64,000 nt of DNA, from assembly GCF_025999835.1 (NCBI RefSeq), contig NZ_AP025628.1, positions 3,038,001-3,102,000 on the forward strand, in the 5' to 3' direction. This document shows positions 3,299-56,071 of the stretch, piece by piece. The translations under genes were made by a program, and so were the position numbers. The stretch's first letter is position 1. Each line of letters begins with the position of its first letter. Source of the DNA: Caldinitratiruptor microaerophilus (GTDB lineage: Bacteria > Bacillota > Sulfobacillia > Symbiobacteriales > ZC4RG38). The notes beneath the pieces are model-generated. The model was not told where the DNA came from, did not search any database, and saw only the letters and a program-made list of their open reading frames with translations.

Positions 3299-3375
3299 GC
3301 GCCCGTAGCTCAGATGGACAGAGCAGCGGTTTCCTAAACCGCGGGTCGGCGGTTCGAGTCCGTCCGGGCGCACCA
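3299..3375 (+). tRNA. tRNA-Arg (CCU anticodon), prophage integration target
   Basis: A 77-nt tRNA with acceptor stem GCGCCCG/CGGGCGC, encoded CCA, T-loop TTCGAGTC and anticodon loop TTCCTAA, giving anticodon CCT. From position 3331 on it is identical to the copy at attR, so after integration its 3' half is supplied by the phage and the gene stays intact. Such tRNA genes are classic tyrosine-integrase targets. Confidence 0.97.
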
Positions 3376-8473: not shown

Positions 8474-8683
8474 GTGGATCGCGTGGAGTTGATACCCATC
8501 GAGGTTGGGAACGTGTGCTCGTGCGGCGAAGAGCAGGCGCTGTACGCGCTGGCCGGCATCCGCGTGGGGCGGCGGTGCCTGGCAGATCTCGTGGAACGGG
8601 CGATACAGGATCCGGACGTGTGGCGGGATCTCGAGCTGCGTGGCATCAGCCTCGGAGGTGGGGGACATGCGGGTACGCGTTGA
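8474..8683 (+). CDS. Small CxC protein
   Basis: 69 residues from GTG, preceded by GAGGTG. Contains NVCSCGEEQALYALAG and a later RRCL, perhaps three zinc ligands. The 3' end overlaps the sliding clamp start by 17 nt. Unknown role. Confidence 0.55.
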   Translation: MDRVELIPIEVGNVCSCGEEQALYALAGIRVGRRCLADLVERAIQDPDVWRDLELRGISLGGGGHAGTR

Positions 8684-9764
8684 GACCCGGGCGCTCCGGG
8701 AGGCCCTGGCCACAGCCGGACGGGCTGTGGCGTCACGGGCCAGCATACCCGTACTCTCCAGCGTGCTCCTCGGGGCGCACGCTGACGGCCTGAGCATCAC
8801 GGGGTACGACCTTGCTCTTGGGATTACGGCCAGGGTACGGGCCGCTGAAGTGGAGCGCGAGGGGGTGGGGTGCCTCCCGGCCCGCCCCCTGCTGGCGATG
8901 GTCGACCGGCTGGACGCTGCGGAGGTGGCCATCGACTGGGACGAGGAGCGATGCGTCGCGGAGATCACCTGGGCTGGCGGACGATACCGCTTGTCGGGGT
9001 TTTCCGCTGCGGACTACCCCTCCCTTCCTCCGCCTCGGGGCGGGCCGGCCCTGCGCCTGGCTGTGGAGACGATCCGGCACATGATCGGCCAGACGATTGT
9101 CGCCGTGGCCTCTGGCAGCGACAAGGCGCACCTTCAGGGCGTGCATCTCCGAGGTGGGAGCGACGAGCTGCTGGCCATGAGTTCAGACCAGGTTCGGGTG
9201 GCGCTCAAGCTGGTGAGGGGCCAGAAGCCGGCCGTGCCGTTTGAGGTCACGGTGCCGGCCGCTGCTTGCCGGGCGCTCCTCGCCGTTCTGCCCGACGAGG
9301 GGGAAGTGGCCGTCTATGTGGTCGAACAGGCGCTGGTCTGGGATACGCCTGAGGTCACGGTCGTAGCCCGCGGGATGGATGGCCGGTACCCGGACCTGGC
9401 TCGGGTGGTCCCGACTCGTTATGGGCCGGCATTCGAGGCAGACCGGCGGGCGTTTGCAGAGGCGCTGGAGCGGGCGGCCGCTGCCGCTGATGCGGTCGAT
9501 CTGCGGCTGGTCCACGGCGAGGTCCAGATGACGGCCCAAAATGACCTGGGCACCTACGAGGAATCCATGCAGGCTGACGTGCGTCTGGAGGAGGGCGACG
9601 CGTTCACGATCCGGTTCAACCCCAGGTATCTGGTCGACGGCCTCAAGGCCTTGCACGGTGAGCGTGTACGGCAGGAATTCATCGACGCGCGGCAGCCCTC
9701 TCGGCTCATCGACCCGGACGACGACAGTTACCAGTATGTGGTTCTTCCGATCGTGGTCTTTTGA
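8667..9764 (+). CDS. dnaN-like: DNA polymerase III beta subunit (sliding clamp), phage copy
   Basis: 365 residues, close to the 360-380 of bacterial beta clamps. It spans the three clamp domains: it opens with an N-terminal strand and RASIPVLSSVLL, continues through ADYPSLPP and GRYPDLARVVP, which are typical domain-boundary motifs, and ends in the conserved C-terminal strand VVLPIV. A homodimeric ring would tether polymerase to DNA at phage forks. ATG 8667 was chosen because it follows GGAGGTGGGGG and starts at the expected N-terminal strand. A phage-borne clamp suggests replication semi-independent of host DnaN. Confidence 0.93.
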   Translation: MRVRVETRALREALATAGRAVASRASIPVLSSVLLGAHADGLSITGYDLALGITARVRAAEVEREGVGCLPARPLLAMVDRLDAAEVAIDWDEERCVAEITWAGGRYRLSGFSAADYPSLPPPRGGPALRLAVETIRHMIGQTIVAVASGSDKAHLQGVHLRGGSDELLAMSSDQVRVALKLVRGQKPAVPFEVTVPAAACRALLAVLPDEGEVAVYVVEQALVWDTPEVTVVARGMDGRYPDLARVVPTRYGPAFEADRRAFAEALERAAAAADAVDLRLVHGEVQMTAQNDLGTYEESMQADVRLEEGDAFTIRFNPRYLVDGLKALHGERVRQEFIDARQPSRLIDPDDDSYQYVVLPIVVF

Positions 9765-11319: not shown

Positions 11320-12258
11320 GTGGGGGCGGTACGCGTGCAGGCGTTTGAGTCGCTGCGGTGGGTGTTCCAGAACTCCACGCTCACGACAACCGAGAAAGTC
11401 GTGCTGACATGCCTGATCCTGCACGCGGATGAGACGGGGCGCTGCTGGCCTGGGAGCGATACGCTGGCGACGGAAACGGGGCTTAGCCGTCGGGCCGTGC
11501 AATACTGCTTGAAGCAATTGGAAGCCAAAGGGTTGATCGCCAGAGAGGCGATGCCTCCGAAACGCACCATCTACACGGTGCACCTGTTGCAGGGTGCATC
11601 GGATGCACAGTGCACCGGATGCACGGTGCAACAGCTGCACGGTGCACCAGATGCACAGTGCAACTCGTGCACGGTGCAAGAGGTGCGCCGAACGGTGCAC
11701 CAGGTGCGCCGTACCGTGCACCACGTGCGCCGTAACGGTGCACCTGGTGCGTCGATTGCAGTAACAAATGAGCCCGGAAACCAGCCTCCAGAGCGGGATT
11801 CCGGAACTGGAAGCGACGCCGAACTCCCCATTGAACTCCCCAATGAACTCCTCAATGAACTCCCCAGAGAGAGTACACACGACGCGCGGCGTCGTGCCTC
11901 CTCCCCTAAAGCCAACACGAAGCACAACCGGACGGTCAGCGAAGCGGAGCGTGCGTTGGTCGATCAACTGTGGCAGCACCTCAAAGTGAGTGACGCGTTA
12001 CCGGCCGACACCGACCGGTTCTACTGGCGCCTCGTCAAACAGGCACGTGACCTCTTGTCCGCCCGGTCGCTGGCCGAGTGGGCGGCCTGCATCGAGTGGG
12101 CCCTGCAGGACTCGTACTGGAGGGAGCGGCTGACGGACCTTCGTCAACTGGGCGAAAAGGTGTGGCCTCAGTTTGCCCGGCGGCGGAACCGTGAGACCAC
12201 TCCTGGACGGCCCAAGTTGCTAGAGCCGGAGGAGGTTTCCGATGACGACATCCGTTGA
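11320..12258 (+). CDS. Winged-helix replication initiator carrying the origin iterons
   Basis: 312 residues (GTG 11335 is an alternative start). Residues 15-85 are a winged helix of the phage replication-protein type: LTTTEKVVLTCLILHAD, then WPGSDTLATETGLSRRAVQY and a wing. A variable middle section is encoded by the iteron array at 11577-11754 and by four 12-bp repeats. The C-terminal 100 residues form a helical domain expected to contact the helicase. It overlaps dnaB by 17 nt. The layout matches lambda O: initiator gene containing its own binding sites. Function is inferred from layout. Confidence 0.85.
   Translation: MGAVRVQAFESLRWVFQNSTLTTTEKVVLTCLILHADETGRCWPGSDTLATETGLSRRAVQYCLKQLEAKGLIAREAMPPKRTIYTVHLLQGASDAQCTGCTVQQLHGAPDAQCNSCTVQEVRRTVHQVRRTVHHVRRNGAPGASIAVTNEPGNQPPERDSGTGSDAELPIELPNELLNELPRESTHDARRRASSPKANTKHNRTVSEAERALVDQLWQHLKVSDALPADTDRFYWRLVKQARDLLSARSLAEWAACIEWALQDSYWRERLTDLRQLGEKVWPQFARRRNRETTPGRPKLLEPEEVSDDDIR
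11577..11754 (+). repeat. ori: Ten tandem iterons (putative phage replication origin)
   Basis: Units beginning GGTGCA or a one-base variant start at 11577, 11593, 11609, 11625, 11641, 11657, 11673, 11694, 11715 and 11737. The first six are 16 bp with pattern RGTGCAnnnnnTGCAC; the last four are 21-22 bp with TGCGCCGTAAC-type tails. The array lies inside the initiator gene. The 16-bp period is not a multiple of three, so the encoded protein changes with phase, which argues the DNA repeat itself is selected. Confidence 0.85.
11821..11868 (+). repeat. Four 12-bp tandem repeats
   Basis: GAACTCCCCATT, GAACTCCCCAAT, GAACTCCTCAAT and GAACTCCCCAGA follow one another, 66 bp after the iterons. They encode a four-residue ELPx repeat. 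They may be a second origin element or simply slipped-strand expansion. Confidence 0.7.
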
Positions 12259-13582
12259 CCGGCGACCTCTTCCGCAGAATCTCGAAGCCGAGCAAAGCGT
12301 CCTCGGCGCGATCCTGCTCGACTCTGAGGTCGCCGGGTGGGTCCTCAACGAATTGCCGGCGGACGACTTCTACGCCGATCGCCACAGGATCATCTATCGG
12401 GCCATGCAGGCGCTCGCGGCCGAAGGGCGACCCATCGACCTCGTGACCGTTGGAGAGCGGCTACGTGGCGAGGACACGGAGAAGTGGGGTGGGTTGTCGT
12501 ATCTGGCGCACCTTCAGGGCTTCGTGCCGACGGCGGCGAATGTCGGGGCGTACGCGGAGATCGTGATGGAGCAAGCTCGCCGACGCCGGTCGATCCAGCG
12601 GATTCGGCGGGTTCTCGACGGCCTGTACGACCCGGCGGAGGACCTGACGGACCTGGCCTTGCTGGCCGCGTGGGCGGTAGAGGACTCGCCCGGCCAGCAC
12701 GCCGACGTGGAATCCATCGGGGAGGTGGCGGCCCGGCGCGTGACCGAGCTGCGGTCACGTCCTCCTGGCCAGATCCCCGGGCGAACCACGGGTTTCCAGG
12801 TGCTGGACCGCCTGACCGGAGGGCTTGAGCCCGGCGCCCTGTATCTGCTGGCCGCCAGGCCGGGGATGGGAAAGACGGGACTCGGTCTGGCCATCGTGCT
12901 GCGGAGCGCGGCGGCCACGGGGCTCCCCTGGCTGGTGGTGTCCCGGGAGATGACGGCGGAATCCCTGAGCGACCGAGCCGTTGCAAGCCTCGCCCAGATT
13001 CCCCTCGGCCTGCTCCGGCGCAACAGTTTGGCTGAGATGGGATGGACCAAGGTGGCCGACGTGCTGGAGCGGCTACACGGGCTGCCGGTCTATGTGACCA
13101 CTAGGGCCCGGCGGGTCTCAGAGATTCGCGACCGAGCCCGTGCCTTGCAGAAGTCGGCGAACGGGAGGCTCGGCGGCATCATGGTGGACTACCTGCAACT
13201 GTTGCAGGCCCGAACGAAGGGCGGCAACCGCCAGGAGCAGGTAGCGGAGATCAGCCGGGACTTGAAGAACTTGGCGGTCGACCTTGACACCCCCGTGCTG
13301 GCCCTGGCCCAGGTATCCAGGGCAGTCGAGGGGCGGGAGAACAAGCGCCCGACGCTGGCCGACCTCCGGGAGAGTGGCCAGCTCGAAGCCGATGCTGAGG
13401 CGGTACTGTTTCTGTACCGGCCGGCCTATTACGACCGCTTGGAGGGCAAGGAGACACCGCCCGCGGACAAGGTGGAGGTGATCCTGGCGAAGCACCGGAA
13501 CGACGAGGTGCGAACGGGCGAGTTGCTGTTCCACCCGGAGTGGGTGCTGTTCGATGACCCGGTGGGAGGGAACGGGACGTGA
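12242..13582 (+). CDS. dnaB-like: Replicative DNA helicase, DnaB family
   Basis: 446 residues, the normal DnaB length. The N-terminal helical domain begins LPQNLEAEQSVLGAILLD. The RecA-like motor has Walker A ARPGMGKTG near residue 205, Walker B GGIMVDYLQLL near 315 and the DLRESGQLEADAE block that contributes to the arginine-finger region. A homohexamer loaded on the lagging strand, it would be recruited by the preceding initiator. ATG start overlaps the initiator gene by 17 nt; the next gene starts in a 4-nt overlap. Confidence 0.96.
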   Translation: MTTSVDRRPLPQNLEAEQSVLGAILLDSEVAGWVLNELPADDFYADRHRIIYRAMQALAAEGRPIDLVTVGERLRGEDTEKWGGLSYLAHLQGFVPTAANVGAYAEIVMEQARRRRSIQRIRRVLDGLYDPAEDLTDLALLAAWAVEDSPGQHADVESIGEVAARRVTELRSRPPGQIPGRTTGFQVLDRLTGGLEPGALYLLAARPGMGKTGLGLAIVLRSAAATGLPWLVVSREMTAESLSDRAVASLAQIPLGLLRRNSLAEMGWTKVADVLERLHGLPVYVTTRARRVSEIRDRARALQKSANGRLGGIMVDYLQLLQARTKGGNRQEQVAEISRDLKNLAVDLDTPVLALAQVSRAVEGRENKRPTLADLRESGQLEADAEAVLFLYRPAYYDRLEGKETPPADKVEVILAKHRNDEVRTGELLFHPEWVLFDDPVGGNGT

Positions 13583-20341: not shown

Positions 20342-21724
20342 GTGGAGATCCGCCGGGTGCCCATCGCTCGGATTGAGATGGCCCCGTACAATCCCCGGAA
20401 GGACCTCAAGCCGGGGGACCCGGAGTACGAGGCCCTGCGGCGGTCGATTGGGCACTGGGGCCTTGTCGAGCCACTGGTCTGGAACGAACGTACGGGGCGG
20501 CTCGTCGGCGGCCACCAGCGACTGAAGGTCCTGATCGAGCAGGGCGTCCAAGAGGTCGAGGTAAGCGTCGTCAACCTGGATGAGCACGAGGAGAAGGCCT
20601 TGAACCTCGCCCTGAACAAGATCCAGGGTGACTGGGACGAGGAGAAGTTGCGGGCCGTCCTGCTCGAACTGGACGACCACGGGGTGGACCTGGCACTCAC
20701 GGGCTTCTCCGAGGCTGAGTTTGAGGATCTGGTGGGCGAGGGGGCCGGCGGCGGCAGCGTGGCCGATCAGGACGAGGACGAACTGCCCGAGCTTCCGCTG
20801 GAGCCGGTCACACGGCCCGGCGATCTGATTCTCATGGGCGAGCATCGTCTCCTGTGTGGCGATGCGCGGGATCCGGAATCCGTACGGCGTCTCCTTGCCG
20901 GTCGGACCGTGGACCTCCTGGTCACGAGCCCGCCGTACAACGTCGGGGTCCGCTACCAGAGCTATGACGACCGCGAGGTGGACCGGGACGATTACCTGAC
21001 CTTCTTGCGCCAGGTGTTGCGAATCTGGGTCCCGGCCCTGGCCCCGGGCCGGTTCGTGGCGTGGAACGTTTGGGTCTCGCCCAAGACGTATCACTACCAC
21101 CAGGCCGTCCTGCTCGAGGAGGTCGGCCTTCAGTTCTGGCGTCAGCTCGTCTGGGTCAAGAAGGGCATCCCGGTCCCGCATTTCTACAGCCAGACGAAGC
21201 GCCACCCGGAAGCCCGCAGGTATCACCCGAGCTACCGGCACGAGGTGATCTACCTGGCGACTGCCGGCGAACCGCGCGGCCTGGTATACGACCCCTCGTG
21301 GGACCACGAACTCGTGTACCTGTTCTCTACGGGCCCGCCGGAGTACGGCAGCCCGATCATGCTGCCTGGAGCGGGCGAATCCGATGTCTGGGACTTCATC
21401 AACCAGTCCACGACGAGCCGAGACATCCCCAACGCTCCCCCGGGAGCAGAGCATCATTCCAACCTGGATCGCCGCAGCGTGAAGCTGCACCCGGCCACGT
21501 TCCCCGTCGCGCTGCCGCAGACGCTGATGGGCTACCTGACGGCGCCGGGGGAAACGGTGCTTGACCCGTTCTGCGGCGCCGGCACGACGATCCTGGCGGC
21601 CGAGAAGATGAAGCGTGTTGCCCTCGGGGTCGAGATCGACCCCGTTTACTGTGACCTGGCGGTGATGCGTTGGGAGCGGATGACGGGTCGGAAGGCCGAG
21701 AGACGCCCGAAGGAGGAATGGTAG
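20342..21724 (+). CDS. ParB-like domain fused to DNA methyltransferase
   Basis: 460 residues. Residues 1-110 are a ParB/Srx-type domain: VPIARIEMAPYNPRKDL and LVGGHQRLKVLIEQG. Residues 150-460 are a beta-class amino-methyltransferase with catalytic TSPPYN near 198 and the SAM motif DPFCGAGTT near 402. Such fusions methylate adenine-N6 or cytosine-N4 and are common in phages, often protecting phage DNA. GTG 20342 follows GGAGGG. It ends 3 nt before the small terminase gene, and so is packaged into the late operon. Confidence 0.92.
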   Translation: MEIRRVPIARIEMAPYNPRKDLKPGDPEYEALRRSIGHWGLVEPLVWNERTGRLVGGHQRLKVLIEQGVQEVEVSVVNLDEHEEKALNLALNKIQGDWDEEKLRAVLLELDDHGVDLALTGFSEAEFEDLVGEGAGGGSVADQDEDELPELPLEPVTRPGDLILMGEHRLLCGDARDPESVRRLLAGRTVDLLVTSPPYNVGVRYQSYDDREVDRDDYLTFLRQVLRIWVPALAPGRFVAWNVWVSPKTYHYHQAVLLEEVGLQFWRQLVWVKKGIPVPHFYSQTKRHPEARRYHPSYRHEVIYLATAGEPRGLVYDPSWDHELVYLFSTGPPEYGSPIMLPGAGESDVWDFINQSTTSRDIPNAPPGAEHHSNLDRRSVKLHPATFPVALPQTLMGYLTAPGETVLDPFCGAGTTILAAEKMKRVALGVEIDPVYCDLAVMRWERMTGRKAERRPKEEW

Positions 21725-46657: not shown

Positions 46658-47839
46658 CTATCTTTCGCACCCGACTCCATCATGATCACCGTCAAACCGA
46701 TGCGGATCAGCTCCCACCACGCTAAACCGCCGATAGGGCACATCCTTGCAGTCCAGGTCGGGCGGCGGAGGCGGGATGCATACCGTGGGGTAGGACGGGT
46801 CGCAGTTTCCCCGTGGCGGCGCGGTCGCCTGCGGCCTTGCGGGAGCAGGTTCCGGAGGTGCTGGTTTTGGCGGCGGAGCCCATAGCCCGATTCCGGCCTG
46901 TCGGGCCTCAGCTGCGAACTCGCGGAATAGGTCGGCATACTTCACGTCCGGCGGGTAGGTGGCCTGCTGGGCAAACCCACGGACGAGCAGGATGGCGTTG
47001 AACATACCGCTCCGGAGATCCTGCGGTGTCGGCTCGGCCGGAGGCTCTCGCAGCCACACGTACCGCAGGGCCCGGCCGTACTTGTCGGTCTCGGAGACAT
47101 CTTTCTCCAGCCAGACCGTCTTGCTCTCGAGCTCGCGTTTCGTGAAGGCAGCCGCCTCCTTGCCATAGGGCTCCACCTGGGTTGTGCTCTCCGGCGTATC
47201 CACGCCGATGAGGCGGACGCGGGTGGAGGGCAGTTTGGGTCCCGAGACGTGCTCGACCTCGATGGTGTCGCCGTCGATCGCGCGGACGACCTTGGCCTGC
47301 GTATGCGATACCGCGGGCTCATGCTCAGCTGGCTCTACCTGTGATTGGACCTGTGAGGCGTCATGAGTGGGAGGGCTGGACTCCTGCGTGACGGGAGGGG
47401 TCGGTGGTAGTTGAGTCGCGCTAGGCTTGTCCACGGACGTCTCGGCCTGCACTTGCGACTGTGTTGGAACGCCAGTTACTGACGGCCCGGGGGAAAGCGA
47501 AGGCCCCAGGAAGAACATCAGGACGGAACCCGCGAGGACCCACGCCGCCTTCTTGCGGTCCGCGATCAGGTCTGGCACCTCACCTTTCACAAGGCCGACA
47601 AGACCGACGATGAATCCGATGATGCCCAGCAACGCCAGGCAGATGCCGATCGCTGGCCACAACGATCCGTCGATGAGCGCACCGCCGGCAGACAGGACTA
47701 CGACGGACCCGACGAGAAAACGCGCTGCGCCCTTTCGGTCGGCGAGAAGCCCCTTGATGCCACCTACGGCCAAGCCGACCAAGCCTGTGAGGGCTCCGAT
47801 CAGCCCCAGGAGAACCAAGGCTGCACCCAGCGTACCCAC
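46658..47839 (-). CDS. Membrane-anchored thermonuclease (SNase) with excalibur domain
   Basis: 393 residues. Four N-terminal hydrophobic segments (as two related hairpins, LGLIGALTGLVGLAVGGIKG and its repeat), a Pro/Thr/Gln-rich stalk, then a staphylococcal nuclease domain: VVRAIDGDTIEVE, RVRLIGVDTPES and KYGRALRYVWL supply the catalytic D, R and E region. It ends in an excalibur calcium-binding motif (DGDHDGVGCER). The nuclease would act at the outer surface, possibly against incoming DNA. GTG 47839. Confidence 0.88.
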   Translation of the reverse strand: MGTLGAALVLLGLIGALTGLVGLAVGGIKGLLADRKGAARFLVGSVVVLSAGGALIDGSLWPAIGICLALLGIIGFIVGLVGLVKGEVPDLIADRKKAAWVLAGSVLMFFLGPSLSPGPSVTGVPTQSQVQAETSVDKPSATQLPPTPPVTQESSPPTHDASQVQSQVEPAEHEPAVSHTQAKVVRAIDGDTIEVEHVSGPKLPSTRVRLIGVDTPESTTQVEPYGKEAAAFTKRELESKTVWLEKDVSETDKYGRALRYVWLREPPAEPTPQDLRSGMFNAILLVRGFAQQATYPPDVKYADLFREFAAEARQAGIGLWAPPPKPAPPEPAPARPQATAPPRGNCDPSYPTVCIPPPPPDLDCKDVPYRRFSVVGADPHRFDGDHDGVGCER

Positions 47840-47881: not shown

Positions 47882-48862
47882 TCAGGTCGGATCCAAGCCA
47901 AGACGTTCCGCGGCATCAGGGAACGTCGGGTCGTAGGCATAAAGCTTCTCCCAGGTTCGTCGGGCTTTCTCTTGCTCGCCGGCCTGTTCGTAACTGCGGG
48001 CCAGAACGTGATGCACGACAGCCAGTTCCTGGTCGAGCCTGAGCTTCCGGCCGATAGCTGCCCGGCAGACCTCAATAGCGGCTGTGGGGCGGTCCAGTTT
48101 CAGCAGGGCCTCCGCCCGGACGGCGGCCACGACGGGCTCGGCTGGTAGGTCGGCCAGGAGGGTCAGGGCCCACTCCGCATCGCCAGCCTCCACCGCAGCC
48201 GTTGCCGCGTGGAGGCGATCCTGTGCTCCCAAGACGCCACCCCGCTCGGCGTACGCTTTGTAGGCCGCCGCCGCGTCCGTCCAGTTCTGGAGACGGACCT
48301 CGCACCTGGCCAAGCCGAGTCGAATCTCGGGGGCGTCGATTCCAAGTTCGAGAACCTTCCCGAGATGCTGCTTGCATGCCTCCCACTTTCCAAGGCTCCA
48401 GGCCCCACGGGCGGCATGGTAAGCGGCGTAGGCCAAGCGGCCGGGACGGCGCCACACCACCATGGTGATCGCGAGCAGGACGACCCCGACAGTTGTGCCT
48501 ACGGGAGGGGACCAAACGGCGATGAGGCCGATGAAGAACGCCCAGGATAGCCAGCGCCATCTGGCCAGGAGTGCGGGCATGGGAACGAAGTGGTCTTGGA
48601 CCTGTGGCCGCTGACTCGGGGCGTTAGCCGGCGCCTTGGTGGGTGTCGCCCCGGTTCTGTGGCTCTTTACTGGTCGCCACCATCGGGTCGTTTGGGACCA
48701 GTACAGGCCGGTTCCGGGGATGCCAACGGACTTGGTAATTCCCCGGGTGCTGACACCAAGCCGGAAGCCCTTCACACCACCGGAGATGCCGATGGAACGC
48801 TTCCCCAGGTTCAGCCGTACACCTTTCCCGAGGCTAAGACTCTTCCGAAATCGAAAGCCCAT
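47882..48862 (-). CDS. DUF4236-TPR membrane protein
   Basis: 326 residues. Residues 1-55 are a DUF4236 module (FRFRKSLSLGKGVRLNLGKR, then STRGITKSVGIPGTGLYWSQ). Two adjacent hydrophobic segments near 100-140 form a membrane hairpin. Residues 150-326 are tetratricopeptide-like helices (LAYAAYHAARGAWSLGKWEA to ARSYEQAGEQEKARRTWEKL). First gene of the minus-strand group with the SNase and wall-binding protein. Role unknown; DUF4236 proteins are often prophage or mobile-element-borne. Confidence 0.8.
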   Translation of the reverse strand: MGFRFRKSLSLGKGVRLNLGKRSIGISGGVKGFRLGVSTRGITKSVGIPGTGLYWSQTTRWWRPVKSHRTGATPTKAPANAPSQRPQVQDHFVPMPALLARWRWLSWAFFIGLIAVWSPPVGTTVGVVLLAITMVVWRRPGRLAYAAYHAARGAWSLGKWEACKQHLGKVLELGIDAPEIRLGLARCEVRLQNWTDAAAAYKAYAERGGVLGAQDRLHAATAAVEAGDAEWALTLLADLPAEPVVAAVRAEALLKLDRPTAAIEVCRAAIGRKLRLDQELAVVHHVLARSYEQAGEQEKARRTWEKLYAYDPTFPDAAERLGLDPT

Positions 48863-54575: not shown

Positions 54576-54685
54576 GGAACCCCACCCCGATGACGGTTGT
54601 CGGTACGGAGTTACGGCTGGTATCATTCTATGCAGAAGCCAACGGTACGTTCCCAACATGCGCATCCGAACAGGAGGGCCGGATC

Positions 54686-55873
54686 GTGCGGGGGCACATC
54701 CGACCCCGGGGCAAGGACACCTGGGTCATCGTGGTCGACGTAGGCAAGGACCCCGCGACGGGGAAGCGGAAGCAGAAGTGGGTTACCGTCAAGGGCACGA
54801 AGCGCGACGCCGACCGTAAGCTCGCTGAGCTTCTGAACGATTTGAACAAAGGTAGCTACGTTGAACCACCGAAGATAACCGTTGGAGAGTACCTGGACCG
54901 CTGGCTGGAGGATTACGCCCGTGCGAACACGAGCCAGAGAACGTTCGAGCGTTATGCGGAGATCGTGCGCCTGCACCTCAAGCCGGCCCTTGGGGGGCTC
55001 CAGCTATCGCAGCTCAGGCCGCTGCACTTGCAGCAGTACTACACGACGGCCCTGCGTGAAGGGCGTAAGGACGGCAAGCCCGGGGGCCTGAGCCCCCGGA
55101 CCGTGCTCCACCATCACCGGGTGCTGCACGAGGCCTTGGATCAGGCGGTGCGGTGGCAGCTCCTGGCGCGGAACCCGGCGGATGCGGTGGAGCCCCCGCG
55201 TCCAGAACGGCACGAGATGCAGGTCCTCACGGCAGAGCAGGTCCGGCTTCTCCTGGAAGCAGCACAGGATACCCCCTGGTACGTCCCGGTCCTCCTCGCA
55301 GTCACGACCGGGATGCGACGGGGAGAGATTCTCGGGCTGCGTTGGTCCGACGTAGACCTCGAGACGGGTATCCTGTCCGTACGCCAGACCATCCAGACCA
55401 GCCGCGAGCTAGGGTTGGTGTTCAAGGAGCCCAAGACGGACAAGAGCCGGCGGTCTCTTCCTGTGCCGGCCTATGTGGTGGAGGTCCTACGGGAGCACAG
55501 GAAGCGCCAGGCGGAGGTGCGGCTGGCAGCGGGACCCCGGTACCAGGACCACGGGCTCGTAGTGAGCGCGCCCGACGGCACGCCCATTCACCCCGACTCG
55601 TTTTCAAAGGCGTTTGCCCGGATCGCCCGGAAGGCGGGCGTTCCGGCCACCCGGCTCCACGACAGCCGTCATACCCATGCGAGTCTGCTTCTGGCTCAGG
55701 GGGTACACCCGAAGATCGTGTCGGAACGACTCGGGCATTCCGGGGTCGGGATCACGCTCGATACGTACTCGCATCTTCTCCCCGGGCTGCAGGAGGAGGC
55801 GGTTCGGCGCCTTGGGGACACACTGTTTGGCGAACGGCAGACCGTCGGCCGGCAGCGAAAGGGAGGGCGGTAG
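54686..55873 (+). CDS. int: Phage integrase, tyrosine recombinase family
   Basis: 395 residues from GTG 54686, behind AGGAGG. The N-terminus (RGHIRPRGKDTWVIVVDVGK) is the arm-binding AP2-like domain; residues 75-165 form the core-binding SAM-like domain. Catalytic residues are visible: R in TTGMRRGEILGLRW, K in EPKTDKSRRSLPV, H-x-x-R in HDSRHTHASLL, H in ERLGHSGVGI and Y in LDTYSHLLPG. It sits 150 bp from attR and catalyses recombination at tRNA-Arg. Confidence 0.96.
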   Translation: MRGHIRPRGKDTWVIVVDVGKDPATGKRKQKWVTVKGTKRDADRKLAELLNDLNKGSYVEPPKITVGEYLDRWLEDYARANTSQRTFERYAEIVRLHLKPALGGLQLSQLRPLHLQQYYTTALREGRKDGKPGGLSPRTVLHHHRVLHEALDQAVRWQLLARNPADAVEPPRPERHEMQVLTAEQVRLLLEAAQDTPWYVPVLLAVTTGMRRGEILGLRWSDVDLETGILSVRQTIQTSRELGLVFKEPKTDKSRRSLPVPAYVVEVLREHRKRQAEVRLAAGPRYQDHGLVVSAPDGTPIHPDSFSKAFARIARKAGVPATRLHDSRHTHASLLLAQGVHPKIVSERLGHSGVGITLDTYSHLLPGLQEEAVRRLGDTLFGERQTVGRQRKGGR

Positions 55874-56025: not shown

Positions 56026-56071
56026 TTCCTAAACCGCGGGTCGGCGGTTCGAGTCCGTCCGGGCGCACCAG
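56026..56071 (+). other. attR: attR core (46-bp direct repeat)
   Basis: Exact copy of 3331-3376. Only the 3' part of tRNA-Arg is present, from the anticodon loop on, and the upstream flank has no tRNA 5' half, so it is not a functional tRNA. Confidence 0.95.

Follow-up and report, generated by a model that had tools for sequence, protein, structure and literature searches.

The question raised by this locus is whether a tandem repeat lying inside a phage gene is dictated by the protein that it encodes or is a DNA element in its own right, and which protein would then recognise it. The window, that is, the whole 64,000-nucleotide stretch of DNA that was analysed (positions 3038001-3102000 of a single-contig 3.6-Mb genome), includes a 52.7-kb element bracketed by an exact 45-bp repeat of the 3' end of a tRNA-Arg (Table 1). 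This element contains genes for an integrase, a terminase, a portal, a tape measure, a tail protein and an endolysin, and is a complete-looking tailed-phage prophage. Its replication module is formed by a beta clamp gene, an O-like initiator gene and a DnaB helicase gene, the start of which overlaps the stop of the initiator gene. Both a beta clamp and a DnaB of its own are thus encoded by the prophage, and the same pairing was found beside the array of Thermus phage Lalka8 (L244). Elsewhere in the prophage, positions 20342-21724 encode a 460-aa protein in which a ParB-like partition domain is fused to a DNA methyltransferase domain (phrog_620, phrog_498). Toward the integrase end, a DUF4236-TPR protein (47882-48862) lies beside a staphylococcal-nuclease-domain protein (46658-47839); these are possible cargo genes.

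Table 1. Features of the prophage and of its initiator gene (positions in the window).
Feature	Position	Strand	Evidence
attL, 3' end of tRNA-Arg(CCT), exact 45-bp repeat	3331..3375	+	sequence repeat
Phage-borne DNA polymerase III beta clamp	8505..9764	+	DNA_pol3_beta; phrog_947 2.9e-58
O-like replication initiator gene, 312 aa (GTG start assumed)	11320..12258	+	HTH_36 3.6e-12; phrog_391 2.8e-17
Predicted recognition helix codons, residues 57-69, RRAVQYCLKQLEA	11488..11526	+	AF2 helix 57-69
Iteron array, ten imperfect dyads TGCA-N5-TGCR, encoding residues 87-144	11579..11751	+	TRF, pattern search
12-bp repeats GAACTCC-YCAAT (or YCAWT), four (3.8 copies), candidate unwinding element	11821..11866	+	TRF score 78
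DnaB-type replicative helicase	12242..13582	+	DnaB_C 1.1e-73, DnaB 8.3e-31, phrog_19 7.7e-97
Tyrosine integrase	54590..55873	+	Phage_integrase 1.9e-23
attR, exact 45-bp copy of 3331-3375	56026..56070	+	sequence repeat

The first-pass annotation had placed a winged-helix initiator next to dnaB, and the profile searches bore this out: in addition to the HTH_36 match, the match to phrog_391 ("replication initiation O-like") spans residues 14-295 of the protein. In the AF2 model, an N-terminal winged helix (pLDDT 81-98 over the first 90 residues) is followed by a low-confidence linker (about 40-57) and a helical C-terminal part (about 62-77). Lambda O matches PF04492 (Phage_rep_O), and this match was absent from the window initiator in the Pfam search. 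No solved structure matches the initiator family by sequence, and a fold search with the family retrieved only general MarR/CodY-like winged helices. The locus does not have the layout of an iteron plasmid replicon of the Rep/RepA type: the dyads lie inside the gene and no Rep family scored above the cut-off.

The repeats had initially been described as ten almost gapless units, with a period of 16 bp and then of 21-22 bp. This array was recovered by TRF and repeat search, with period 16 at 11574-11678 and period 21 at 11671-11755. Modules start at positions 11579, 11595, 11611, 11627, 11643, 11659, 11675, 11696, 11717 and 11739, which gives six steps of 16 bp followed by steps of 21, 21 and 22 bp. 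A 13-bp dyad with two TGCA-type half-sites (20 half-sites in total) describes the unit better than the single RGTGCA core that had been proposed. The TGCA halves are perfectly paired in six modules, the last four being TGCA/TGCG, and the inner pairs are complementary in 11/20 cases, compared with about 5 by chance. The TGCA-N5-TGCR pattern occurs 19 times on the two strands of the window, 16 of them in the array, against a shuffle expectation of 3.65 and a shuffle maximum of 12; in tandem, it was found nowhere else in the 3.6-Mb genome.

As the first-pass annotation had pointed out, the 16-bp period breaks the codon phase from unit to unit: successive units fall in phases 1, 2, 0, 1, 2, 0 and 1, with all three frames in use. 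Synonymous recodings were generated with the codon usage of the prophage genes. In 2000 of these, 2.47 +/- 1.20 modules were obtained and none reached the 10 observed; TGCA occurs 16 times compared with 6.9 under recoding (never reached in 2000), and the 16-bp self-similarity was 67 compared with 43.6 (0/2000). Codons that are rare in the prophage are used in the array (e.g. GCA for Ala, 6%). Selection on the DNA repeat, as originally suggested, therefore holds for the array as a whole, which lies beyond all 2000 recodings, but not for its 21-bp part alone, which keeps the reading frame and falls short of significance (246/2000). A DNA-level constraint on the array, as opposed to a by-product of the protein, is supported.

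Close relatives are few; hence, distant ones were collected both by DNA pattern and by protein. The DNA-pattern set is biased toward repeats, and only matches in winged-helix genes were kept. The matches in viral contigs were mostly collagen-like GAT repeats and were discarded, and those of the strict pattern in genome contigs were mostly repeats outside winged-helix genes. Near-identical coliphage loci were left out of the comparison. The pattern-found set includes many divergent winged-helix genes in which the same module directly follows the winged helix. The peptides encoded by the module differ with the frame (VHxVH, GAPxAP, CTxCT), often within one gene; of the 18 pattern-found relatives that have at least three modules, 16 use more than one frame. 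The protein-similarity set, unbiased for repeats, comprised 46 initiator genes, drawn from Bacillota genomes as well as from phages and plasmids. In each gene, 8-mers that recur in another codon phase or on the other strand were scored against protein-preserving codon shuffles, and the median z of these 46 genes was 5.1 (78% above 3), compared with 0.9 (8% above 3) for 39 neighbour ORFs; the window gene scored 3.8. A hold-out of 31 further non-redundant relatives, nearly all of them of a Massilia plasmid-prophage initiator, gave a median z of 12.5 (97% above 3). A second Bacillota set of other winged-helix genes, mostly non-initiators, was mostly negative (median z 1.0) and was used for negative control and not for testing the recognition code. 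The likeness to lambda ori within O that had been suggested was upheld by the positive control, since lambda O carries the same repeat signal (z 8.3; lambda P, 1.3).

Relatives keeping the amino acids but losing the DNA repeat had been named as the finding that would count against a role of the DNA. Instead, a DNA repeat is retained in the relatives at the same place, following the winged helix, with different encoded peptides, and the arrangement is common to a large initiator family, not peculiar to the window. These data also bear on the possibility that selection acts on a Val-His/Gly-Ala linker, the repetition of the DNA being a by-product of a recent tandem duplication. The 21-bp part, which keeps one frame and by itself stays within the synonymous null, would fit such an origin, as would relative L142, in which only in-frame repeats were present (z -0.8). 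Nevertheless, the frame shifts at every 16-bp unit, the modules exceed the number expected under synonymous recoding, several frames are used in nearly all the relatives mentioned above and the linker has low AF2 confidence, all of which makes a protein-level repeat very improbable. The linker at the array is probably disordered, judging from the model, and the array would be tolerated in a coding region because the encoded linker accepts almost any peptide.

The two halves of the dyads change together between lineages, giving compensated dyads in the relatives: GCAG-CTGC, GCAA-TTGC, GACA-TGTC, GCCA-TGGC and GAAC-GTTC in the hold-out, and GGTGACT-AGTCACC, GGTAGGTTC-GAACCTACC and CGGCAC-GTGCCG outside it. 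Association between iteron class and protein sequence was analysed over 72 winged-helix columns in the 62 genes that have three or more dyads sharing a register. The three top columns (46, 41 and 42) all lie in the recognition helix and correspond to Y62, R57 and R58 of the window protein, within its predicted recognition helix. Base 3 of the half-site is C in 7/7 genes that have Arg at column 46 (helix position 6), compared with 0/55 of the others (Fisher 2e-9, with kinship ignored and the rule noticed post hoc in the same 62 genes). In the hold-out alone the figures were 3/3 and 0/22 (p 4e-4), the three cases (L282, L291 and L296) occupying separate places among GCA-type relatives in a tree with many poorly supported forks. 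The rule also agrees with a few additional Bacillota genes, which were read by eye and belong in part to the same lineages. A second rule, Asp at column 41 with A at half-site base 2, is weaker: it holds in three of the four Asp genes, and three genes have A without Asp. The simplest reading of this covariation is that the recognition helix would read the iteron sites. Array and recognition helix would be inherited and exchanged together because they lie within about 250 bp of each other.

Iteron-like arrays also serve partition, and the array might be the target of another DNA-binding protein (partition, packaging or host factor), such as the ParB-like/methyltransferase protein that the prophage encodes. 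However, the motif varies with the recognition helix of the initiator itself and, in phages that are unrelated, is still located in the initiator gene; we consider such a target very improbable.

Downstream of the array, positions 11821-11880 are the least stable 60 bp of the initiator gene and lie at the 98.9th percentile of the prophage, with a GC content of about 53-54% that is not AT-rich in absolute terms. The 12-bp repeats found here reuse codons rare in the prophage (GAA, 21%; AAT, 7%), which would not be independent if the units arose by duplication. Because these repeats are in frame, the window alone cannot show them to be DNA-driven. In the relatives, of all 5-mers downstream of the winged helix, GAACC most often recurred at a distance of 10-13 bp (12 of 45 protein-ascertained genes), compared with a mean of 2.1 in shuffles, where the largest count of any 5-mer was 7. 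The short GAACC spacings in the first two sets of genes were 10 bp (3), 11 bp (18) and 12 bp (13), with none of 13-16 bp in these sets, and those in the hold-out were 11 bp (4) and 12 bp (16). All 54 GAACC pairs are on the coding strand (0 opposite), and the spacings of 11 and 12 bp mix frames. The lowest GC falls at the GAACC-repeat region in 26 of 30 hold-out genes. The GAACTCC-YCAAT repeats of the window look like the equivalent of the GAACC repeats of the relatives, and both may have a role in strand opening; the 12-bp repeats belong with the iteron array as part of the same picture.

The covariation with the recognition helix would be explained equally well if the array were an autoregulatory or silencing roadblock that limits expression of the initiator and DnaB, with replication starting elsewhere, and the sites do lie upstream of dnaB within a gene that is transcribed. 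An operator made of ten sites and placed about 260 bp into the gene would be unusual, however; the downstream GAACC repeats at 10-12 bp would be left unexplained, and in lambda O the counterpart known from experiments is the origin (PMC7466680, PMC5043065). We consider autoregulation unlikely.

In lambda, O dimers bind each dyad iteron and open the adjacent 40 bp of A+T-rich DNA (PMC5043065, PMC7466680). Features of a lambda-type origin found in the window are dyad units suited to dimer binding, an initiator-specific repeat array within the initiator coding sequence and an adjacent region that is easily melted in terms of relative stability (GC about 53-54%). In both lambda O and the window, dyad iterons in the middle of the initiator gene are followed by a weak region, and the C-terminal part of lambda O matches phrog_391, as does the window protein. 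The N-termini differ (Phage_rep_O in lambda O, HTH_36 in the window), lambda ori has four iterons of 18 bp and of other sequence as opposed to ten modules, lambda O has no GAACC repeats, and lambda P loads the host DnaB whereas the window phage encodes its own. Very probably, the prophage replication origin is embedded in the gene of the initiator itself, and the array forms the initiator-binding half of this origin. As the covariation suggests, each of the ten dyad iterons would be bound by the N-terminal winged helix, probably in dimeric form. The loaded array would form a complex like the lambda O-some, which would stress and open the adjacent weak GAACTCC repeats; this step is proposed from their position, their stability and the lambda precedent. 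The C-terminal part of the initiator would then hand the phage's own DnaB to the opened strand. We infer binding, unwinding and origin activity, and the best reading is a lambda-like origin inside the initiator gene, common to the broad HTH_36 initiator family and with a candidate recognition code.

For the family as a whole, the proposal is more tentative and we give it slightly less than an even chance: HTH_36 phage initiators of several bacterial phyla would carry in their own genes a two-part origin, made of coded dyad iterons and a strand-specific GAACC opening array. In the candidate code, Arg at helix position 6 would read the G opposite base 3, and Glu or Asp at helix position 1 would tend to set C or A at base 2. 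The GAACC repeats, spaced at about one helical turn, are a candidate opening element specific for the initiator or the helicase.

Among the O-like relatives are those of Thermus phage Lalka8 (L244), Pseudomonas phages LESphi3 (L249), Riah (L252), PseuP_222 (L263) and AV001 (L254), lambdoid mEp460 (L264) and a Massilia plasmid-prophage (L255). They share an HTH_36-type winged helix with dyad iterons right after it and, in most, a GCA core; several have downstream GAACC repeats. Iteron number, spacing and the bases outside the core differ, and the iterons are unmarked in those deposited annotations that were examined. An origin inside the initiator gene itself is already known from lambda, and a putative case is Francisella phage KIRK, for which repeats were predicted inside the replication gene fhv_0043 and likened to lambda (PMC7924643). 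The likeness drawn here between KIRK and the window is one of arrangement, repeats within a phage replication gene; the parts of its description consulted contain no family-wide or specificity analysis (PMC7924643). In the PLE satellites of Vibrio cholerae phages, RepA recognises semi-palindromic iterons with an initiator-specific recognition that diversifies, but these iterons lie in a noncoding region and the initiator, likened here by description only, is a different one (PMC8263062).

No description of the iterons or of the GAACC repeats of HTH_36 initiators was found in the open-access literature, nor were footprint, binding or replication data for a member of the family, subscription journals being outside the scope of the search. 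As far as this literature shows, what is new is the sharing of GCA-core dyad iterons by phages of several phyla, together with the candidate recognition code and the phased GAACC repeats. To our knowledge, the replication origins of most phages are unmapped. If the proposal is true, the origin of many temperate phages could be read from the initiator gene, and phages could be sorted into replication-compatibility types. The paired switches in both partners would be a natural protein-DNA code open to direct test, and the GAACC repeats, strand-specific and spaced 10-12 bp apart, would add a new conserved component to such origins, beside the A+T-rich region of lambda.

Other repeats were also observed. 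In a Bacillota genome (L404), iteron-like GTGATAGGAACTGTGGTTCC repeats with an even-length centre follow the winged helix (z 17.1) and do not fit the register in which the code was tested. The actinobacterial relatives on Streptomyces and Thermobifida plasmids (L256, L260) have in common another repeat type after the winged helix, AGATTG / CTGACC-like. Finally, short GTGCAC tandem repeats were spread over many contigs of the same genomes, outside genes matching the winged-helix profile, in Acidobacteria Ww172 (L181, L182, L183, L195, L197, L201, L204, L206), Vicinamibacterales (L199, L209, L215, L216, L222, L225, L233) and Thiobacillus (L186, L187, L193, L202, L203, L212, L214, L218-L220, L230).
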